Below are positions 1,725 through 30,139 of a stretch of 37,465 nt of DNA, piece by piece. Numbering within the stretch: the stretch's first letter is position 1; each line of letters opens with the position of its first letter. Where the stretch lies: the IMG/VR virus record IMGVR_UViG_3300037088_000471, positions 1 through 37,465 of that record; one strand, given 5' to 3'. The notes beneath the pieces were generated by a model. It made no database searches. It was not told the origin of the DNA and saw nothing but the letters and a program-made list of their open reading frames with translations. The position numbers were made by a program, and so were the translations under genes. This stretch comes from a virus.

Positions 1725-2729
1725 TTAGGATCCGATGACAGTTGACTTACGGGAAGCGGCAATAGCGCGTGGGTTCACAATACCAATTCCAATCTCCTCG
1801 GAAACAACCCAGCCCAATTTTAGCTGTTTTGGTTCATCCGCTGGAATTACTTCGATGTCCTGACGAATCGGCAACACACCTACGAACTCTGGGTCAGAGG
1901 CACCGTAGACAGTTCCTGGAGGAACGATCTTGGAGACCATGATATCAGCGCCCCAGATGTGAGCATAAAGACCAGTCTGGAGAATTTCGCGCTGTGTAAC
2001 TGGATCAATTTCACCAGCCGAGGTTCCGGAAGCTGCCCAATTAAGGATGTCCGTAAACTCGTTGATGTTCATGAAGAACTTCGTGGTTACAAGGTCCCAA
2101 CGATCAATCTGTACCTTGATTTCAACCAAGTCTCTCTTCAACAGACCGCTGTCTGTAATGTCTTGCAACGTATTTTCAACAGACGATGCTGCGTCAATGG
2201 CGGCGAAGATGTTTGCATCTTCTTGGGCCATAAGTTCTTGACGGGCCTTCTGAACGGCACGATCAATAACGTTGAATCGACGACGACGAACTTCAGAGAT
2301 ACGAACTGTTGGGTTCGAGTAAAGCTCGAAGGTTGGTACAACGATACGATCACCGAACACGCGGCTTTCACCACCGGTACCATTGCTGGAAATAACGGTA
2401 GCGGCGACATCAATGTCACGCTCGTACTTCGGATCGACGCCCTGTGGAAGTGGATCGACCACCAACAGACGGCGGGCAATTCCCTGATAGTCCAAGTTAC
2501 GACGAATTGGATTCGCCATAGCCTGAGCAAGAGCAAGCTTGCCTTCCTGTGTCATGATTGCACGGGCGATCAGCTCGTCCCGTTTTTCGTCATTCAAACC
2601 TGGTTGGCCCGAAAGCGCCAAATTTGAAGGCTGGCCCTCTTCGAGGATCGCAGCATACTTAACTAACGTATTTAGTGCGTCTTTGACGCTGGTAGCGTTC
2701 ATGCCACCACGGGTATCAAATAAAGACAT
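1725..2729 (-). CDS. Major capsid protein, HK97 fold
   Basis: The start at 2729 (MSLFDTRGGM, 334 aa) has AGAGGTAAATAT just upstream, which favours it over the ATG at 2768. The stretch around ANPIRRNLDYQGIARRLL, followed by VDPLP and then a region rich in VVPTFEL-type beta segments, is the pattern I know from HK97-fold capsid proteins of large myophages. Length, position downstream of portal and protease, and flanking by a decoration-like gene and a strong terminator all fit. The N-terminal ~75 residues are polar and could be a maturation-cleaved arm: LVKYAAILEEG there resembles the K-x-A-Q/A motif seen in other proteins of the block. The protein would assemble the icosahedral shell. The family call is by recognition, with no alignment run. 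Confidence 0.88.
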   Translation of the reverse strand: MSLFDTRGGMNATSVKDALNTLVKYAAILEEGQPSNLALSGQPGLNDEKRDELIARAIMTQEGKLALAQAMANPIRRNLDYQGIARRLLVVDPLPQGVDPKYERDIDVAATVISSNGTGGESRVFGDRIVVPTFELYSNPTVRISEVRRRRFNVIDRAVQKARQELMAQEDANIFAAIDAASSVENTLQDITDSGLLKRDLVEIKVQIDRWDLVTTKFFMNINEFTDILNWAASGTSAGEIDPVTQREILQTGLYAHIWGADIMVSKIVPPGTVYGASDPEFVGVLPIRQDIEVIPADEPKQLKLGWVVSEEIGIGIVNPRAIAASRKSTVIGS

Positions 2730-2783
2730 ATATTTACCTCTTGTAACAATTTGTTTGTAAGCTGCCAAAATCCATCAACAGCT

Positions 2784-10781: not shown

Positions 10782-11567
10782 CTAAACCCCTGACGCTCTT
10801 TTTTGGACCTCGTCCAGGGATATTGATTTATTACCCTTTTTTAGATTAGCTATCGTTTCAAGTGGACGTAAATTTTCCAACGCCCAGAGCTTGTGAAAAT
10901 TTTCATCAGAAAATGATTCGAAAAGCAATTTACTTTGAGGAATGATATGGTCAATTTGCCAAGTGTCCCTAATCTTATCAAATTTACCGTAATTATCCCA
11001 ATTCATCCACGGCTCCCACAAAGACTCTATGTGTAACCTAAGTTCATCGGAAGTATATGGCAGCCAATCAAATATATATTTATTTAGTCTATCCAATTGG
11101 CTATTAAATAATGGACGGTTACGAATAGTCTCTCTAATAACATTTGAAACATTAAGCCTTAATCTGAATTTAGGATCTGTTTTGCGCTTAATTTTGCGAT
11201 ACTTATTTGCGGTGCGTTTCACTCTTTCTGCATTATTTGCATTCCATAACCTTCTACTTTTACACTTTTTAGATTGTCTCTCTGGCGTAGCCGCAAATCC
11301 TCGTTCACATTCAATACAAGATGACCTCAAACCATCTATATTATCTATAGATTTCCAAAATTTATCAGATGATTTTAACAACCTACACGTACAACATACC
11401 TTCTTAAGAATTTCAATTTTTTCTTTAGATATTCTAACTCGCCTGCGCATTTTAGAATCAATATTTGCACATATTTTACAAACATCACTCAAGCCATCTT
11501 TTCTGGATTTGTGCTTGTGAAACTCACTTATGTCCTTGTCAACATTGCATCGATAACACGTTTTCAT
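10782..11567 (-). CDS. HNH homing endonuclease with tandem zinc-binding modules
   Basis: ATG 11567 (MKTCYRCNVDK, 261 aa) is chosen because AAGGG precedes it just after the upstream stop; the frame also stays open upstream inside the neighbour. The N-terminal half has two similar Cys4 modules (CYRC...CKIC and CCTC...CIEC), each with a DGL just before the second Cys pair. The C-terminal half has the HNH core WQIDHIIPQS followed by LWALENLRPLETIANLKKGNK, as in phage free-standing HNH nucleases. It would nick or cut DNA at a homing site. It sits between two paralogous structural genes, so its insertion may have split or followed a duplication. Confidence in the family is high; the target is unknown. 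Confidence 0.93.
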   Translation of the reverse strand: MKTCYRCNVDKDISEFHKHKSRKDGLSDVCKICANIDSKMRRRVRISKEKIEILKKVCCTCRLLKSSDKFWKSIDNIDGLRSSCIECERGFAATPERQSKKCKSRRLWNANNAERVKRTANKYRKIKRKTDPKFRLRLNVSNVIRETIRNRPLFNSQLDRLNKYIFDWLPYTSDELRLHIESLWEPWMNWDNYGKFDKIRDTWQIDHIIPQSKLLFESFSDENFHKLWALENLRPLETIANLKKGNKSISLDEVQKRASGV

Positions 11568-11574
11568 CTGGCCC

Positions 11575-12270
11575 TTATAGATACATGAACTCCAAAGTGC
11601 CAAATGCGGCAGTTGGCGGCCCCGTAACGAGCGCAACTCCTGGATAATCTTCATTTGGTTGTGATGTAGTTAGTCTGCCATTCTCGGATACGAATAGAAT
11701 GCTATTGAGTGGATATCTCTGGTTAGTCTCGTACATATCAGTTTGGAAAATTCCACGCTGAAACCATACGGTAATATGTCCACTACCCAAGGTTGAATCA
11801 TCACCAGACACATTCGGTATTTGATATACATAACTAACGACGGTGCGGATCGAGTCAGGAATACCATCTCCATCGAAATCGAAGTTAAGTTCCGTTCCAG
11901 CTGGGAATAGAACGACTCCGTTACGTGGAATAAGATGCACATCAACCGGCGCTGTCATGAAACTAGACGGAATGATATTTGGGTTACGAAGTTCCCATTT
12001 CACATCAACCACAGTAATTAATTTTCCATCTTGTTCAATTGCTGATGTGATCGGAACAATCACCTCTTCATCAATTGATGGGGCTGTGAATGCTCTTGTC
12101 TTGAAATCATCAATAATTCCAAATGGTGCTCTACCATCACTCACACCACACACTAAGTTATTTCCGCGCAAATAAAGCTGGGCAATCATTCCCGGTTCAA
12201 ACTCTGCCACGGGATCAACTGGATATGATACTGGAATAGCATTTCCTACTTGTACAATTTTTAAACTCAT
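11575..12270 (-). CDS. Decoration-type structural protein, long paralog, 231 aa
   Basis: This beta-rich protein is the longer member of the pair with 10379-10780 (shared D-G-x-x-P-F-G motif at the front and N-x-L-x-x-x-x-x-G-x-L near the end). Its extra central region contains ELNFDFDGDGIPDS, a run of Asp/Gly resembling an EF-hand-like calcium loop (DFDGDGIPDS), which suggests metal-stabilised folding. The start has a textbook AAGGAGAGAT binding site. It is the first gene after a terminator and may have its own promoter. An abundant virion surface protein is the likeliest role; tail or baseplate membership cannot be ruled out. Confidence 0.86.
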   Translation of the reverse strand: MSLKIVQVGNAIPVSYPVDPVAEFEPGMIAQLYLRGNNLVCGVSDGRAPFGIIDDFKTRAFTAPSIDEEVIVPITSAIEQDGKLITVVDVKWELRNPNIIPSSFMTAPVDVHLIPRNGVVLFPAGTELNFDFDGDGIPDSIRTVVSYVYQIPNVSGDDSTLGSGHITVWFQRGIFQTDMYETNQRYPLNSILFVSENGRLTTSQPNEDYPGVALVTGPPTAAFGTLEFMYL

Positions 12271-12861: not shown

Positions 12862-13236
12862 TTATTTAGTATCAATTCCTAAAAACTCAAAAACATTTTC
12901 GGCTTCCTTCTTATTTGTTTTATCAAAGAAATTCTCACAATTTTTTCGATAATCAGGATCCGAATAAAAGCGCATTACATGGGCCTTTTGATTAAATTCT
13001 GGCAAAAACTCAACCGCAGATGCGCTATCAGCTAGCGATATCATTACTGCCGTTACCTCTTCTGCACGAGCTACTCTACCAACTCGTTCAAAACTTTCAG
13101 CCGCACTATTCAATGCTTGCATTGCTGCAAAAACCAACTGATCGTGTTGCTGATCCTCTTCTACAAGAACTTGTTGTTGAGCGTTTTGCATGCCATCAAA
13201 AAGTTCTTCTGCGCAAGATCCTCGCTTGAAAATCAT
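12862..13236 (-). CDS. Small protein of unknown function, 124 aa
   Basis: It starts with ATG 13236 in an ATGA overlap with the preceding stop, behind GAGG. Residues ~15-75 form a predicted helical bundle (QQHDQLVFAAMQALNSAAES, then VGRVARAEEVTAVM). The C-terminal part has an aromatic/charged stretch MRFYSDPDYRKNCENFF. The pattern of short helices with an ARAEEVT-type segment also appears in the 71-aa neighbour (LLENAGMKLQCAAVDAI) and in the larger proteins here, so a shared helical-hairpin building block is possible. No function is assigned. Confidence 0.83.
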   Translation of the reverse strand: MIFKRGSCAEELFDGMQNAQQQVLVEEDQQHDQLVFAAMQALNSAAESFERVGRVARAEEVTAVMISLADSASAVEFLPEFNQKAHVMRFYSDPDYRKNCENFFDKTNKKEAENVFEFLGIDTK

Positions 13237-13448
13237 ATTGATACCTCGATAGTGCTTTCATCAATAGTTTTTGCTCTTTTGATAATAGCGTCAACAGCTG
13301 CACACTGAAGCTTCATGCCAGCATTTTCAAGCAAATTACGAGCCTTAATAAGAGAGGATATGGCCTCATCAGCTCCGAGAGATTTCTTAAGATCTCCACT
13401 GAGGAAAAAGGCCATATCGCGCTCTATGTTTGCGGTGAAATTTTTCAT
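13233..13448 (-). CDS. Small protein of unknown function, 71 aa
   Basis: The 71 residues begin MKNFTANIERDMAFFLSGDL and form a two-helix pattern with a segment SLIKARNLLENAGMKLQCAA. It overlaps both neighbours by ATGA junctions, so it is coupled to the frameshift-encoded domain upstream and to the 124-aa gene downstream. Its size and context resemble small head-assembly factors, but no family is recognised. Confidence 0.8.
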   Translation of the reverse strand: MKNFTANIERDMAFFLSGDLKKSLGADEAISSLIKARNLLENAGMKLQCAAVDAIIKRAKTIDESTIEVSI

Positions 13449-13774
13449 GTTTGCATTCCAAGGGATTCTAGAAGAGTTACCATAGCCGCTTTCTTTTTCT
13501 TATCATTGATTTTGATACTAGGATATTTGCTATGGACTGCTCTAGTTACTGCACTTTGTAGTTCTTTTAATGAACCACTCCACCACGGTGGGGCTGATGT
13601 ATATTGATGTGATCTTGCAATGGCATTTCGAGCACGGCCGCTGGTATCAATTGGAAAATGATCCTTATCGTCCTTTACTTTTGGATGCTTATTATCAAAT
13701 ATGGCAGCCGGTTTGTTACGCACCTTAGCTTTTGGATCTTTTTTTGTATCCTTTTTTTCAGCTGCCTTTACGCT
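13445..13774 (-). CDS. C-terminal extension domain reached by -1 frameshift
   Basis: This frame is open from the frameshift site to a stop at 13445 and encodes about 109 residues (SVKAAEKKDTKKDPKAK, then a 92-residue domain containing SHQYTSAPPWWSG and SLKELQSAVTRAV). It has no ATG until its last codons. The only alternative start nearby is GTG at 13723, which lacks a convincing binding site. The first 17 residues are Lys-rich like the protein encoded upstream. Its stop overlaps the next start (ATGA), as for a real gene. The simplest reading is that it is the C-terminal domain of a 459-aa fusion made by ribosomes slipping at 13780-13774. A homopolymer sequencing error that split one gene is the main alternative. 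Confidence 0.8.
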   Translation of the reverse strand, partial: SVKAAEKKDTKKDPKAKVRNKPAAIFDNKHPKVKDDKDHFPIDTSGRARNAIARSHQYTSAPPWWSGSLKELQSAVTRAVHSKYPSIKINDKKKKAAMVTLLESLGMQT

Positions 13775-13793
13775 AAAAAACCCAATTCCTCTG
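13703..13793 (-). promoter_or_regulatory. Programmed -1 ribosomal frameshift cassette
   Basis: In minus-strand order: AGAGGAA (13793-13787), a Shine-Dalgarno-like stimulator; the slippery heptamer T TTT TTA (13780-13774) in correct zero-frame phasing (GGT TTT TTA); a 7-base spacer that contains the zero-frame UAA stop (13770-13768); then GGCAGCTG (13766-13759), which pairs with CGGCTGCC (13710-13703), 8 bp including one G-U, enclosing a 48-base loop. This is the dnaX-like arrangement of three stimulators. The frame entered is exactly the -1 frame of the downstream open region. All parts are visible in the sequence; that slippage occurs is inference. Confidence 0.72.
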
Positions 13794-14823
13794 CTAACTT
13801 CTGCAAAGATGTTTTCTTGCTCGCAACACTACGAGTCAATTCATCAAGGTCTGGCTCCTCTGTAGTTGCCTTACCATCATCTCCGATGCCTTCAACCAAA
13901 GACTCAATATCTGGATCTTCGAGATCAAGTTCGCCTTCGCCTTCGCCATCAGCTGGTTGATCTAAGACCGACCAATCGCCTTCGCCTTCCGGCTCTTCGA
14001 GTTGTTTCATCAATTCTGCGAACTCTTTGTTATCATCAGAGTCTTCAGCCATGCCTGTATCGCAATCTGCATCGGCATGATCTTTAGGCAATCTGGGATC
14101 TAGCGGATCGCCAGGATATGGTGATGGTCGAAATTGAGCCTTCTTTTTAAGATCTTTCTTAACGTCCTTCTTCTCGTCTTTTCCCTTGGCCTTGGCTTTG
14201 TCGTCCTTCTTCTCATCCTTCTTCTTCAACCAAGGAGGTAGACCTTTGGCATCATTCTTATCTTCCTTCTTTTTGGCCTCTTCCTTTTTCTTGGCTTCTT
14301 CCTTCTTCTTTTCGGCGGCCTTTTTTTCCTCTTCCTTCTTCTTGGCTTCTTCCTTCTTGTCCTTGCCCTTGCCATCTTCCTTCTTCTTGGCAGCGGTCGT
14401 TATTAGGTTATCAAGAGCCAACAATGCGAAAGCTGATGCCTTGGAAAGTCCTGCCTCATCCAAAATTTCAGATGCCGTGCACAGACTCTTAATACAAGCT
14501 TCGTACTTGGTCACAGCCTTCTTTTTTGCGGCTGCAGCTTTGGCCTTGGCCTTTTCCTTCTCGGCCTTTTCCTTCGCCTTCTCTTTTTCGGCCTTTTCCT
14601 TGGCTTTTTCCTTGGCTGCCTTCTCCTTAGCCTTTTCAGCTTCGGCCTTGGCCTTCTCCTTTTCCTTGGCAGCTTTCTCCTTTTCCTTGGCAGCCTTCTC
14701 CTTATCATCTTCTTTCTTTGCAGCAGTCTTCGTGAATTGTAACTCTGGCTTTGCAAAAATAGACTGATATACTGGGCTGGCCATAATACCATTCATCTCT
14801 GTAGCAATATCAAATTTAGACAT
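13768..14823 (-). CDS. Lys/Glu/Ala-rich coiled-coil protein, 351 aa, zero-frame product of a frameshift gene
   Basis: ATG 14823 (MSKFDIATEM) has GAGG upstream. Two long Lys/Glu/Ala repeat blocks (about residues 36-100 and 145-225, built of KEKAAKEKEK- and KKEEAKKKEE-like units) flank a short folded segment (KYEACIKSLCTASEILDEAG). A basic-to-acidic switch follows: KKKAQFRPSPYPGDP, then an Asp/Glu/Gly-rich tail ending KLAEELGFLA. Such charged helices suit a scaffold or DNA-condensing internal protein. The K-x-A-Q motif at ~229 could be a protease site. Translation either stops at 13768 or slips -1 at 13780-13774 to give a ~459-aa form. The DNA is locally repetitive, so read errors there should be considered. 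Confidence 0.87.
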   Translation of the reverse strand: MSKFDIATEMNGIMASPVYQSIFAKPELQFTKTAAKKEDDKEKAAKEKEKAAKEKEKAKAEAEKAKEKAAKEKAKEKAEKEKAKEKAEKEKAKAKAAAAKKKAVTKYEACIKSLCTASEILDEAGLSKASAFALLALDNLITTAAKKKEDGKGKDKKEEAKKKEEEKKAAEKKKEEAKKKEEAKKKEDKNDAKGLPPWLKKKDEKKDDKAKAKGKDEKKDVKKDLKKKAQFRPSPYPGDPLDPRLPKDHADADCDTGMAEDSDDNKEFAELMKQLEEPEGEGDWSVLDQPADGEGEGELDLEDPDIESLVEGIGDDGKATTEEPDLDELTRSVASKKTSLQKLAEELGFLA

Positions 14824-14841
14824 ATTTACCTCATTATGGAT

Positions 14842-14864
14842 GGGCGGGGCCTTCAACCCCGCCC
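14842..14864 (-). promoter_or_regulatory. GC-rich hairpin between the protease-scaffold gene and the coiled-coil gene
   Basis: GGGCGGGG (14842-14849) pairs perfectly with CCCCGCCC (14857-14864) around a 7-nt loop. No U-tract follows on the minus strand, so it is not a standard terminator. A strong 8-bp GC helix here could separate mRNA segments by processing or protect the 3' end of the upstream message. Confidence 0.5.
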
Positions 14865-14875
14865 GGCCCAGAAAA

Positions 14876-17800
14876 TTAGAACTTCAAACCTTTTGACTCA
14901 AAGTAGCTATCAAAGAACCCCTTGATATCTTGCCCGTCTTCTTGTGCAACCTTGGCCATTGGTAGAATTACCTCACCAGAACTTAGAAGACCAACCATTG
15001 GAAGGGAAGCCTGCTTGTTCATTGATGGCTGCTTTGCCAAAATATTCTTGATGCTCTCAAATCCAGCGTCATTCCATTTCATAATGTCATTGACTTGCGA
15101 ATCAATCTGAGCCTCAGTAATCATGCCCTTGGCAACCATTTGGTTGGCAACTTCATAAGCTCTCTTGATACGGCCCTTGTAAGATTCAACTTCCTCAGCC
15201 TGCTTGGCCTTGGCGTGTTCCTGTGTCAGCTTGGATGCGAAGTCTTTGCTCTCCGAATCGCCCTGACCAAACAGTTCCTTCCAATACTTGACTGCATCGG
15301 CGTCAACACCATAAGAGGTTAACTTATCAACATCTTCAGCCTTCATGCGACCTTCGGCAACAAGCGCTTGAATCATCTCAGCTTGCTTACGTACGCGAGG
15401 TGGCATATTTGCCAAATCGAGCATGTAGCTTTTGATATCCTTTGGCACATGGAATTCGGCACCTGGAACATTTGGTTTTACATCCAAATTACCGGCGTCA
15501 ACCGCACTAACGCTGCCACCTGGATGCGCATCGTTAGACAATTCATTAAACCCAAGCAAGCCCTTTTCAGCTAGCTTTATACGTGCCTGGGCACGCCCTT
15601 CTTTAGTTGATAGTTCCAAAGTTCCTCCTGCTGTTACTGTTACCTCTCCTAATTCTTGTGTGGCACCACTTGGAGCTTTGAGAGAAAGCTTGGCATCATC
15701 TTCATCAGCCTTGGCGTCATCAGCCTTCGCCGAATCTCCGCCCTTGCCAATATTTGCCAACCACGAATTAAACGTTCCACCGTCCTTTGCGTCTGCACAC
15801 TCTTCCTCACCATCAGCGGCGTCTGCGCACTCTTCCTGCTCGCCATCGGCGGCATCTGCGGCATCTGCTTCTTCGGCATCCGCTGCGTCTGCACATTCCT
15901 CACCGTCTGCGGCGTCTGCGCATTCTTCGGTCTCGTCCGAAGCAAAAATCACGTCAAGAAGATTTTCTTCTGTTGTGCTATGTGCGCGCTTCTCTAGTTC
16001 AGCGGTTCCGTAAGCATACTTAACAACTGCTTCCATCAACTTACCAGCATCAACCAACATGGCCTTTGCGTCTTTGACTGCAGAAATTGTTAGCTCATTC
16101 AGATAATCACGCTGCTCTTCGGTCATAGAAGCATAAGTTTCCTTGTAGACCCTCTTCGCAGTATTGATCTCGCGCATATGCTTCGCCAAAGAAGTGATGG
16201 TCTCATCAACTCCCTCTTGCAGCATACCGTTCAAACGCTTACGCATTGATTGAAGTTGAGCTGCCGTCTTTGGCCCCTCTGCGAACTCTGCGTCACCGGC
16301 AGGCTCGACATCTGGCATGGCATCTGCATCTTCACCAACGGCCCCGCTGACCTTATCACGAAGATCGCTAAGCTTGCCGCCCATCTCATCATATAGAGAT
16401 TGTAGGTCGTCTACGATTTCATCGGTATTTCCACCCTCTCCACCAACACTCTTTGGCGGCTCAAGTGGAGGCAGATCACCAGCACCCGCTGCAGGAGCCG
16501 GAGCTGGAGGAGGAGCGGCTGGGGCAGCCTGTGCACTCTTTAATAGAGCGTCTGCTGTGGCCTGGAAGCCTTCGGTCTGAATACGATTCAGTAATGACTT
16601 ACCAAAACGCTCAGTAGCAACGGCGTCGTAAAGGGCATCTGAATTACCCTTAGTAATTTGATCAACGGAAGCACGAAGAATTGGCTTGTCATTAGCATAG
16701 ACAACCCAGCTTGAAGCTGACTTGTTGACGCGGCCATCAGGAAGGGCAACCTTCTCGAAACGTGCTTTCACCAACGAAGCGCGAAGTAATTTCTCCTTCT
16801 CTGCCTCATCATCCCCGTAAAGACCCTCAACATCACCAACGCCTGGGAATGGCTTGGCACCAACCATTTGCTTATCGAGCATACGGTCTTTTTCATTCAA
16901 AGGATCCTTTGAATACTGAACCTTTCCTGGCTTTGGCTCTTCTGTGCCCTGGAAATATCCTTTGCTCTCCAATTGTTCCTTGGCCTTCTTAAGAGCGGCC
17001 TCACGGAACAATGCGCGTTCGTGCTCATCAGCTAAACGCTGAAGTTCTTTCTTTACTTTCTCATCACCAGGGTACATTCCATCTTCGTCACCCGTATTTG
17101 GGAAAGGAGCCGGACCATGTAGATTCTTGTCCATCAATCTCGCCTTCTCATTCAACGGATCTACAGAGTATTGTTTCTGTCCCGGCTTTGGTTCTTCTGT
17201 ACCTTGAAAATATGCATTCTTCTTTGTCATGGTTGGTTCCTCGTTATTAGATGCTACTCTAAGTAAATTCTCCTGTAGGCTAGCCAGTTTCGTCTGCGCT
17301 CCCAAAATTGCTTTCTGTAAGTCTGAGGCGTACGTTGGGAAAGCCTCAGGCATATTTATCTGAGTCGATGGCTCTACACTAGATTCTTCCATCGACCAGC
17401 TAGAGCGAGTTGGGCCAACCGCATCGCTCTCATCATTTTCATCAAAGTCATTGGCCATAGATTCGATCTTACCCATTAGACTTTGAAGGTCTTTCTGAAT
17501 AGATGTCAAATCTTGCCTAGACAAACCTTTCTTTACTTCCAAATAATCTGAAAGTAACCCGGCAGCCCTAGCAATATCACTGGCAATAATATGCTTAACC
17601 TTGGCTTTTGGGTCTGCTCCGGAAACAACTAATGACAGTTCAATCGGAGACAAATCTAGGTTGATTTCGCCGTAGCAGCTCTTGTTCTTCATGTGTTGGC
17701 AGAAATCTTTTTCAGTTCTGGCGACTCTGTGGCAGTCGGAACATACAGCGCGCCCAACGGCTGTACCCATCGAAACATTATTAGCAACGCCTGTCTTGAC

Positions 17801-18325
17801 CTTATCGGCCAAATCGCCATAATTTTTCGCATCAAGAGCACAAAGAGCAATTACTCTCTTTCTACGGTCATCATATACGGTGTCAACAATAACGCCTCGA
17901 ATCTTATCAACCGACTGTGATTGATGATCGAGGCATAATGGACGACCGACCCAAACTTTATAAGCTATCTTTAACTCTGCTTCGGGGAAAATATCACGGT
18001 TATTATTTCTATAAGGCATCAGGGTTTTGTCATTACAAACCCACTTAACGCCATCCCCAGCCTTTTCCCAGGTAGCTGTGACATCTTGTCCTGTAGATGT
18101 CTTCTTTGGGGTTCCATCATCATTAACGCAGGCCGCTTCAGCAGCATGCATCATAACGCAAGTAAAATACAAAAAGTCCTTTGCTTTGGGAGCGATAACT
18201 TTCAGCTCTTGGGCAAATTTATACATGCGGCTTTCAATATCCAAATCGATATCATCTGCCAATTTCTCAATTGGTTTGATATCCTCCGGCCTAATAAAAA
18301 CAGATTCGCCTAGTTTTATCAGCAT
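14876..18325 (-). CDS. Prohead maturation protease fused to a giant scaffold-like region, 1149 aa
   Basis: Residues ~100-250 resemble phage prohead proteases: CLDHQSQSVDKIRGVIVD (candidate catalytic His134), then a small-residue stretch with NNVSMGTAVG (candidate Ser185), then INLDLSPIELSLVVSGADP. A possible zinc site CSDC...CQH (Cys195, Cys198, Cys209, His211) lies between them. The following ~900 residues are scaffold-like: two tandem repeats (period 85 aa) beginning YFQGTEEPKPG at about residues 370 and 455, a Pro/Ala linker at ~600-625, an acidic tract of ECADAADG repeats at ~800-850, and a helical C-terminus. K-x-A-Q motifs occur near 36, 596 and 1126. Most prohead proteases are ~200-350 aa, so this is an unusual fusion that would process the prohead core and itself. 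The start has GGAGAGCT and overlaps the preceding stop. Confidence 0.8.
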   Translation of the reverse strand: MLIKLGESVFIRPEDIKPIEKLADDIDLDIESRMYKFAQELKVIAPKAKDFLYFTCVMMHAAEAACVNDDGTPKKTSTGQDVTATWEKAGDGVKWVCNDKTLMPYRNNNRDIFPEAELKIAYKVWVGRPLCLDHQSQSVDKIRGVIVDTVYDDRRKRVIALCALDAKNYGDLADKVKTGVANNVSMGTAVGRAVCSDCHRVARTEKDFCQHMKNKSCYGEINLDLSPIELSLVVSGADPKAKVKHIIASDIARAAGLLSDYLEVKKGLSRQDLTSIQKDLQSLMGKIESMANDFDENDESDAVGPTRSSWSMEESSVEPSTQINMPEAFPTYASDLQKAILGAQTKLASLQENLLRVASNNEEPTMTKKNAYFQGTEEPKPGQKQYSVDPLNEKARLMDKNLHGPAPFPNTGDEDGMYPGDEKVKKELQRLADEHERALFREAALKKAKEQLESKGYFQGTEEPKPGKVQYSKDPLNEKDRMLDKQMVGAKPFPGVGDVEGLYGDDEAEKEKLLRASLVKARFEKVALPDGRVNKSASSWVVYANDKPILRASVDQITKGNSDALYDAVATERFGKSLLNRIQTEGFQATADALLKSAQAAPAAPPPAPAPAAGAGDLPPLEPPKSVGGEGGNTDEIVDDLQSLYDEMGGKLSDLRDKVSGAVGEDADAMPDVEPAGDAEFAEGPKTAAQLQSMRKRLNGMLQEGVDETITSLAKHMREINTAKRVYKETYASMTEEQRDYLNELTISAVKDAKAMLVDAGKLMEAVVKYAYGTAELEKRAHSTTEENLLDVIFASDETEECADAADGEECADAADAEEADAADAADGEQEECADAADGEEECADAKDGGTFNSWLANIGKGGDSAKADDAKADEDDAKLSLKAPSGATQELGEVTVTAGGTLELSTKEGRAQARIKLAEKGLLGFNELSNDAHPGGSVSAVDAGNLDVKPNVPGAEFHVPKDIKSYMLDLANMPPRVRKQAEMIQALVAEGRMKAEDVDKLTSYGVDADAVKYWKELFGQGDSESKDFASKLTQEHAKAKQAEEVESYKGRIKRAYEVANQMVAKGMITEAQIDSQVNDIMKWNDAGFESIKNILAKQPSMNKQASLPMVGLLSSGEVILPMAKVAQEDGQDIKGFFDSYFESKGLKF
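15785..15935 (-). repeat. Asp/Ala/Cys acidic repeat tract in the scaffold region
   Basis: The minus strand encodes reiterated ECADAADG units with variants (EEADAADAADG, ECADAKDG). The DNA is a matching imperfect repeat. Cysteines recur at regular spacing in an otherwise disordered acidic segment, which is unusual and may allow metal binding or disulfide crosslinking. Confidence 0.8.
16775..17225 (-). repeat. Two tandem ~255-bp coding repeats in the scaffold region
   Basis: The sequence ctttggctcttctgtgccct (from 16931) recurs as a diverged copy from 17186, giving a 255-bp (85-aa) period. The protein copies share YFQGTEEPKPG, QYS-DPLNEK and FP-G-D--G-Y, spread over about 55 residues. The in-frame duplication is diverged, so it is old and both copies are presumably functional. 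Confidence 0.85.
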
Positions 18326-29308: not shown

Positions 29309-30139
29309 TCATGGAACATGAGCCCACCGCTGACGTTTGACAATTTTCCCAATTTGAGTGGGTTTAACCCCAAACCTATCCGATAAAACCTTGTATGAGA
29401 TTCCCTCCGAGGCCAGTTTTCTTATCAATATCACATCGGCTTCTTTGAGCTTGGCCGCATGATGTTGTTCACCGAACTCAGACGGCTTACCAATTCTGGC
29501 CACACTAATTTTTTGCCTAGATTCTTTCGACATTGGCGATTGAGCAAATCTCTTAATTGTACTTGTCCTAACTTTATTTTTAGTTTCTTCTGAAACCACT
29601 CTTCCTTTTTGTCTTGCACTAATAATCTTTTTTTGCTCTTCTGAGCAATGTTTACCATATCGATGATTACCGGCCCCAATTTGATGAACAGACATTTTCT
29701 TTCGCGTCTCTTCAGATCTAACTATACCAGTATTTACAGCAATAATCTTTTGTCTAAGCCACTCTGGCATCTTGCGACCTTTATTAGCTTTTGACATCTT
29801 CTCTCTGGCCTCGGCCGATACCGTATGTCCAAGAGTGCCGTCGCCACCAGCTGTTAAGTTCATACCAATTTTTTTATTATTTGAGTTATAATGACTAATC
29901 CAATAAATCTCTTTATTATACGCCTCTTCTGCAGTTTCACACTTATCGATAATTTCCATACTGAAACAATCTTCGCCATATTTATTGATTGAGGCTTGAA
30001 GATAGAAAAACTGAGCCTTTGACTTTGTTTTGGCTGCGCTTACATGCCTTCGCCACCTAGCCTTTGGATCAATGGATTTACCAATATATATTTTCCCATT
30101 AACTGTATTGGTTATTTTGTATACATAATGTGATTTCAC
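29309..30139 (-). CDS. GIY-YIG homing endonuclease with NUMOD3 repeats
   Basis: The N-terminus YVYKITNTVNGKIYIGKS (residues 5-22) carries the GIY-YIG signature variant, followed by RWRRHV and a helix with YGEDCFSMEIID. Residues ~100-210 contain repeated NUMOD3-like DNA-binding motifs (SAEAREKMSKANKG, SEETRKKMS, SEEQKKIISARQKG), and the C-terminus (residues ~235-272) is a helix-turn-helix (DVILIRKLASEGISYKVLSD). It would cut DNA at a homing site. Translation begins at GTG 30139, overlapping the preceding stop (ATGTGA) behind AGGAAAG. No intron is evident. It is free-standing in the packaging operon. Confidence 0.94.
   Translation of the reverse strand: MKSHYVYKITNTVNGKIYIGKSIDPKARWRRHVSAAKTKSKAQFFYLQASINKYGEDCFSMEIIDKCETAEEAYNKEIYWISHYNSNNKKIGMNLTAGGDGTLGHTVSAEAREKMSKANKGRKMPEWLRQKIIAVNTGIVRSEETRKKMSVHQIGAGNHRYGKHCSEEQKKIISARQKGRVVSEETKNKVRTSTIKRFAQSPMSKESRQKISVARIGKPSEFGEQHHAAKLKEADVILIRKLASEGISYKVLSDRFGVKPTQIGKIVKRQRWAHVP

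Follow-up and report, generated by a model that had tools for sequence, protein, structure and literature searches.

C-terminal extensions of phage proteins that are made by ribosomal frameshifting have been described for T3/T7 gene 10B, Lactobacillus phage A2 and coat or tail proteins of the Listeria phages A118, A500 and PSA (PMC5009743). Ig-like extensions are in some cases encoded in frame, in others reached by a frameshift, and missing in still others, a pattern attributed to mobile domains that landed either in or out of frame (PMC5009743). In these systems slippage by -1 (or +1) close to the gene end provides a minority of the copies of a structural protein with a mobile domain at the C-terminus, and elsewhere that domain is either absent or encoded in one frame with the protein. 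In lambda, a -1 frameshift close to the end of the gpG reading frame produces the long form gpGT, so that this assembly protein exists in two forms at a constant ratio. In the dnaX gene (tau/gamma), an X_XXY_YYZ heptamer is accompanied by an SD-like element and a stem downstream, and lineages differ in how they make the two forms.

The locus described here resembles each of these systems in part. It is located in a viral DNA stretch of 37,465 bases, called the window in this report. On the minus strand of the window, the genes for terminase and portal are followed by a 1149-aa protease gene, the slip gene, small genes and the gene of the major capsid protein. The Lys-rich slip gene of this head block very probably yields a short form and, by a programmed -1 frameshift, a long form with a DUF6582-like domain. 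The features are as follows.

14876 to 18325, minus strand: gene upstream of the slip gene; residues 107–215 of its 1149 aa form a head maturation protease segment (phrog_18299, 1.1e-15); used as syntenic marker
13768 to 14823, minus strand: zero-frame ORF of 351 aa (short form) with a Lys/Ala/Glu-rich coil; homologues follow the protease gene in further records
13786 to 13792, minus strand: SD-like AGAGGAA, 5 nt ahead of the heptamer, a doubtful stimulator
13774 to 13780, minus strand: slippery heptamer T_TTT_TTA, kept in L001, L002/L003 and L006/L008
13768 to 13770, minus strand: zero-frame stop TAA, one sense codon past the heptamer
13445 to 13774, minus strand: -1 frame extension, 109 codons plus stop, dN/dS about 0.1 in that frame
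13703 to 13766, minus strand: candidate stimulatory stem of 8 bp, GGCAGCTG / CGGCTGCC (p = 0.024 vs synonymous recodings)
13505 to 13717, minus strand: DUF6582-like domain within the extension (RNKPAAIFDNKHPKVKDDKDHFPIDT...WWSGSLKELQSAVTRAVHSKYPSI), from PF20223 and AlphaFold2
13233 to 13448, minus strand: gene downstream of the slip gene, 71 aa, overlapping the last bases of the -1 frame by ATGA
1725 to 2768, minus strand: major capsid protein, 54% identity with Bacillus phage G gp27

The identity of the capsid protein with that of phage G marks the window as a piece of a phage-G-like jumbo phage, and contigs of its relatives reach 472 kb. The 1149-aa protease matches Bacillus phage G gp19 and the prohead protease of Rhodococcus phage E3. 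Named relatives were obtained only for the major capsid and protease proteins; blastn and tblastn against annotated phages returned nothing for the short form or the -1 extension, and a scan of genome contigs gave no matches. Inspection by eye of phage G gp20 and gp21, which adjoin the protease gp19, revealed no DUF6582-like segment. The position of the slip gene between head protease and major capsid protein is kept in the 20 records read.

The closest precedent appears to be the frameshift-made C-terminal extensions of phage coat proteins, with gene, domain and phage group apparently new. The carrier is a Lys-rich gene following the protease and not a major capsid or tail protein, the domain is DUF6582-like instead of Ig-like, and the phages are jumbo, phage-G-like ones. 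Furthermore, several heptamers and several different domains occur here at one gene. The first-pass annotation regarded frameshifting in a head gene as unusual, but T3/T7 gene 10, A2, A118 and PSA are precedents (PMC5009743). No paper on a frameshift in a head-core or scaffold gene was found in the open-access literature. In contrast to lambda gpG/gpGT, which lies upstream of the tape measure gene, the slip gene belongs to the head block, and no sequence similarity to gpG/gpGT was found. A tail assembly chaperone of the G/GT type is ruled out by the position after the head protease and by the lack of a PHROG or Pfam family match for the short form. The label dnaX-like, also from the first-pass annotation, is misleading: the slip in E. 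coli dnaX leads into an early stop and makes the short product, whereas here it would make the long one, on an HIV-type U_UUU_UUA and with an SD spacing that is wrong for dnaX.

From N- to C-terminus, the short form comprises a conserved N-terminus (MSKFDIATEMNGIM...), the Lys/Ala/Glu-rich coil, a helical segment (SEILDEAGLSKASA), an acidic region and a C-terminal KKTSLQKLAEELGFLA directly before the stop. The layout read in the first pass was reproduced in nearly all respects. The 351-aa frame (14823–13768, minus strand) ends with GGT TTT TTA GCG TAA, and its T_TTT_TTA (13780–13774) is in slippery phase inside a 58-nt overlap of both frames. After the slip the -1 frame is open for 109 codons, up to TGA at 13447–13445, and its end forms an ATGA overlap with the next gene (13448–13233). 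The first ATG of this frame is found only among its last residues (AAMVTLLESLGMQT). A second in-phase heptamer, G_GGT_TTT (13783–13777), overlaps the first within TTG GGT TTT TTA. The 11,979 codon slots in the genes of the window contain a single in-phase T_TTT_TTA, and X_XXY_YYZ with Y = A or T occupies 0.45% of the slots in phase. The product of chance probabilities (2e-8) was set aside as main argument because the four lineages with this heptamer share ancestry. Two in-phase A_AAA_AAG heptamers, the strongest type in E. coli, are also present in the coil of the short form (starting at 14527 and 14326, minus strand).

Relatives with the two-frame layout were found by a search with the -1 domain, and they strongly support the proposal that a programmed -1 frameshift adds a separate C-terminal domain to the Lys-rich protein. 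T_TTT_TTA is kept in four diverged lineages represented by six contigs (the window, L001, L002/L003 and L006/L008); L006 and L008 are separate strains, as shown by differences between their coil regions. Across these lineages the short form is 85 to 49% identical to that of the window, and the frames overlap by 13, 16, 37 or 58 nt. The gene ends are GAT TTT TTA GCA CAA AAG TAG in L001, GGT TTT TTA GCA TAA in L002 and L003, and AGT TTT TTA GCC GCA AAG TAA in L006 and L008. The zero-frame stop thus shifts between 3 and 9 nt past the heptamer while the heptamer itself is kept. In L001 and L002 the final -1 stop lies directly before the T-run or three bases before it, so that the frame can change only at the heptamer or the few adjoining bases. 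The first -1 codons past the slip encode S-x-K in all four lineages.

Within the -1 domain, dS is about 1 and dN about 0.1 among the window, L001 and L002 (ratio 0.09–0.11); synonymous sites are near or at saturation in the comparison with L006. Judged by these substitution patterns, the -1 domain is under purifying selection and translated in the -1 frame. An error in sequencing or assembly, or a fused gene recently inactivated by a frameshift mutation, would fit the homopolymer at the site and the existence of single-frame relatives. Such an origin is extremely improbable, since the layout recurs in all six diverged contigs with the stop always within the short distance given above, the low dN/dS holds for the downstream part, and a different heptamer is used in the relative L177.

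Further records were read by means of an anchor, the C-terminus of the protease gene, followed by the next gene. The protease C-terminus and the helical segment served as queries; a profile of the full-length short form was swamped by Lys-rich low complexity. A tree of the protease C-terminus unites the T_TTT_TTA records in a single group (84/97) that is nested among records of the fused and the short-only kind. By this tree, the four lineages do not count as independent cases of heptamer conservation. L170 and L171, with capsid proteins 88–90% identical to that of the window, have only the short form, without domain or heptamer. Their genes end with TSLQKLALELKKAKRSLA (TCT TTG GCA TAA) and SSLEKLAGELKKNFLK (TTT CTT AAG TAA) before the stop, respectively. 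In five other relatives (L004, L005, L128/L172, L133/L173 and L195) the domain is fused in one frame. The first-pass annotation named single-frame relatives as grounds for rejecting a frameshift. Formally such relatives exist, but the branches of these five lack the cassette at that junction; they show the long product to be functional and do not refute the frameshift. As both short-only and fused relatives occur, both products are viable proteins, and the layout of the window would make the two from one gene.

PF20223 (DUF6582) is matched by 19 of the 36 members of the extension family (E up to 1, best 5.5e-7), but not by the window's own domain. In the AlphaFold2 model of the domain, short strands and two helices form a confidently predicted core (core blocks with pLDDT 87–97). 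No match to the fold of the extension was found in the PDB or BFVD, and no paper on DUF6582 was found in the open-access literature. The domain is mobile: it is free-standing in some jumbo phages and fused to many large proteins. In L020 and L034 it is N-terminal to a Mu gpI-like head maturation protease, with two tandem copies in L034. Through this fusion the domain would be linked to head assembly a second time.

In other jumbo phages (L007, L013, L018 and L022) DUF6582-like ORFs stand alone and have an ATG of their own, and in the window a GTG of the -1 frame lies 47 nt past the stop. Both would fit a separate downstream protein made by translational coupling or reinitiation, with no fusion. 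This explanation is highly improbable. The GTG is not conserved, and no conserved ATG, GTG or TTG precedes the domain (L001 has only a late GTG beside the DHF motif, L006 and L177 have none). Moreover, the five relatives named above encode the fusion in one frame, and a separate protein would leave the conservation of the heptamer without a reason.

The 8-bp stem reported to start 7 nt past the heptamer is present, with arms at 13766–13759 and 13710–13703 (minus strand) and a loop of 48 nt. Against dinucleotide shuffling the fold of the window reaches a z of only -1.46, and 15 of 200 shuffles are as good. Against synonymous recodings, in addition to the value listed above for the window, p is 0.10 for L002 and 0.004 for L177, and the fold energies of L001 and L006 are not significant. 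A stem begins 7–8 nt past the heptamer in the window, L001, L002 and L177, in the latter within a very stable hairpin. Comparison of the arms by eye gave no covariation support: those of the window, L001 and L002 are nearly alike, partly because the conserved KPAA codons force them. Among the elements whose conservation the first-pass annotation proposed to check, heptamer and two-frame layout are kept in relatives. The stem has support in the window and in L177 and lacks it in L001 and L006.

The SD-like AGAGGAA (13792–13786, minus strand) is present as well, but at a spacing of 5 nt and not of 6 as first read. The spacing in dnaX is about 10 nt, so that the element of the window is too close. 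L006 (GGAGG) and L002 (GAGGAG) carry SD-like elements about 10 nt upstream, and L001 carries none. An SD-like element was rejected as a required stimulator, as it is badly spaced in the window, not conserved and suitably spaced only in L002 and L006.

In the proposed mechanism, most ribosomes would stop at the TAA just past the slippery site and release the 351-aa short form. Some would slip back by one base on U_UUU_UUA, perhaps helped by the downstream stem, and produce a long form, about 459 aa in length, with the DUF6582-like domain at its C-terminus. We infer the slippage and its rate. A shift on U_UUU_UUA yields a mixture of Leu and Phe (PMC5009743), which predicts LAEELGFLSVK and some LAEELGFFSVK at the junction; the short form ends in LAEELGFLA. 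U_UUU_UUA is a known shift site (HIV) and has been tested in E. coli constructs, in which it is a modest shifter and far less shifty than A_AAA_AAG (PMC5009743). Most heptamers shift when stimulators are present, and stimulators raise most of them many-fold (PMC4066793). From both properties, a minority of long form is expected. The slip would fix the ratio of short to long form, so that a sub-stoichiometric share of the copies in the assembling head carries the extra domain. Position, composition and the protease neighbourhood tip the balance slightly towards an internal prohead or core component as the carrier.

The construction of the very large heads of jumbo phages is poorly known. The slip site, together with short-only and fused relatives, offers a comparative system for the role of the extra domain, and the rule that mobile C-terminal domains are added by phage frameshifting would be extended to a new gene, domain and phage group. 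In the annotation of such genomes, long forms of this kind will be missed.

Other slip cassettes were found at the same gene. In L177 (the record of L093, 321 kb) the DUF6582-like domain is reached via C_CCA_AAA (CAC CCA AAA GCG TAA) with a 19-nt overlap. L177 is placed outside the 12-row clade that includes all T_TTT_TTA records (100/99) on a long branch of the protease C-terminus tree. The fusion gene of L005 ends with AGT TTT TTA GTG TAA, again with a 19-nt overlap, and the -1 frame continues for about 90 codons to an ATGA. This extension and the tail of that in L006 are weakly similar. The L005 extension also shares 46% identity with the following gene, of which it is apparently a tandem duplicate (L005:6267-6555). 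In L200/G035 (contig 3300023199_000204, 316 kb) the gene after the protease ends on an A10 run and has a 76-codon -1 extension. This is of a third kind (PPPKKWWDKMSKEIKKNN..., containing PPPKKWWDKMSKEIKKNNKDYSKERIRETVGDIWY) without sequence kinship to the DUF6582-like domain, to which the L005 extension is likewise unrelated. The slip site is conserved and, as these sequences suggest, repeatedly evolved. Conservation, selection in the -1 frame, fused and short relatives and the other cassettes together make a programmed frameshift very likely and a sequencing error very unlikely.

The small downstream gene, homologous to 12862–13236 (minus strand) of the window, ends on an A9–A10 run in L176, L178, L179 and L180. 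There the frames overlap by 10 nt, with the zero-frame stop 3 nt past the heptamer, and the -1 frame continues as a conserved extension of about 60–67 codons, e.g. GLTPEKMVENLKHTGTPFDYPADD in L179. The matching segment is in frame in L174, L175, L181, L184, L186 and L187. This gene would be a second frameshift or transcriptional-slippage gene of the head block, in a sister clade.

Transcriptional slippage, in which RNA polymerase adds one U to U6 in some transcripts and thereby joins the frames on the mRNA, would give the same ORF layout at the slip gene. The A9–A10 runs of the small gene and of L200 are long enough for it, and these A-run cases could alternatively be of that type. Six T are short for polymerase slippage, the longest run in CCCAAAA of L177 is four A, and all cases retain the heptamer's codon phase, a feature that polymerase slippage would not need. 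For the window, transcriptional slippage is thus very improbable and ribosomal frameshifting is preferred. An in-phase canonical heptamer near the gene end is also present in 5 of 17 relatives with the short form only, always as an A-run from Lys codons. Since such heptamers arise by chance at Lys-rich gene ends, A-type heptamers alone prove little and the A-run cases are weaker.

Whether the post-protease gene of phage-G-like jumbo phages is a recoding hot spot, at which C-terminal tagging of a minority of copies evolved at least 3–4 separate times by -1 slippage, is an evenly balanced question. That reading covers U_UUU_UUA, C_CCA_AAA and A-run sites and domains of the DUF6582-like, L005-type helical and KWWDKM types, plus the small gene (A_AAA_AAA, four lineages of the sister clade). 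If true, it would suggest that the building of very large heads is under selection for a defined proportion of tagged and untagged core protein.

The endolysin gene of phage G (NC_023719 19865-21534, L011), which served as positive control for the heptamer scan, is annotated as a joined CDS, with A_AAA_AAG at the end of the first ORF and a 307-codon -1 extension. Between protease gene and slip gene, the window contains a strong GC-rich inverted repeat (GGGCGGGG..CCCCGCCC, 14830–14870, minus strand). It is kept in L001, L002 and, altered, in L006, and could be an attenuator, a terminator or a processing site. Genes of homing/HNH-type endonucleases are present within the structural block at 10782–11654 and 29309–30139 (minus strand).
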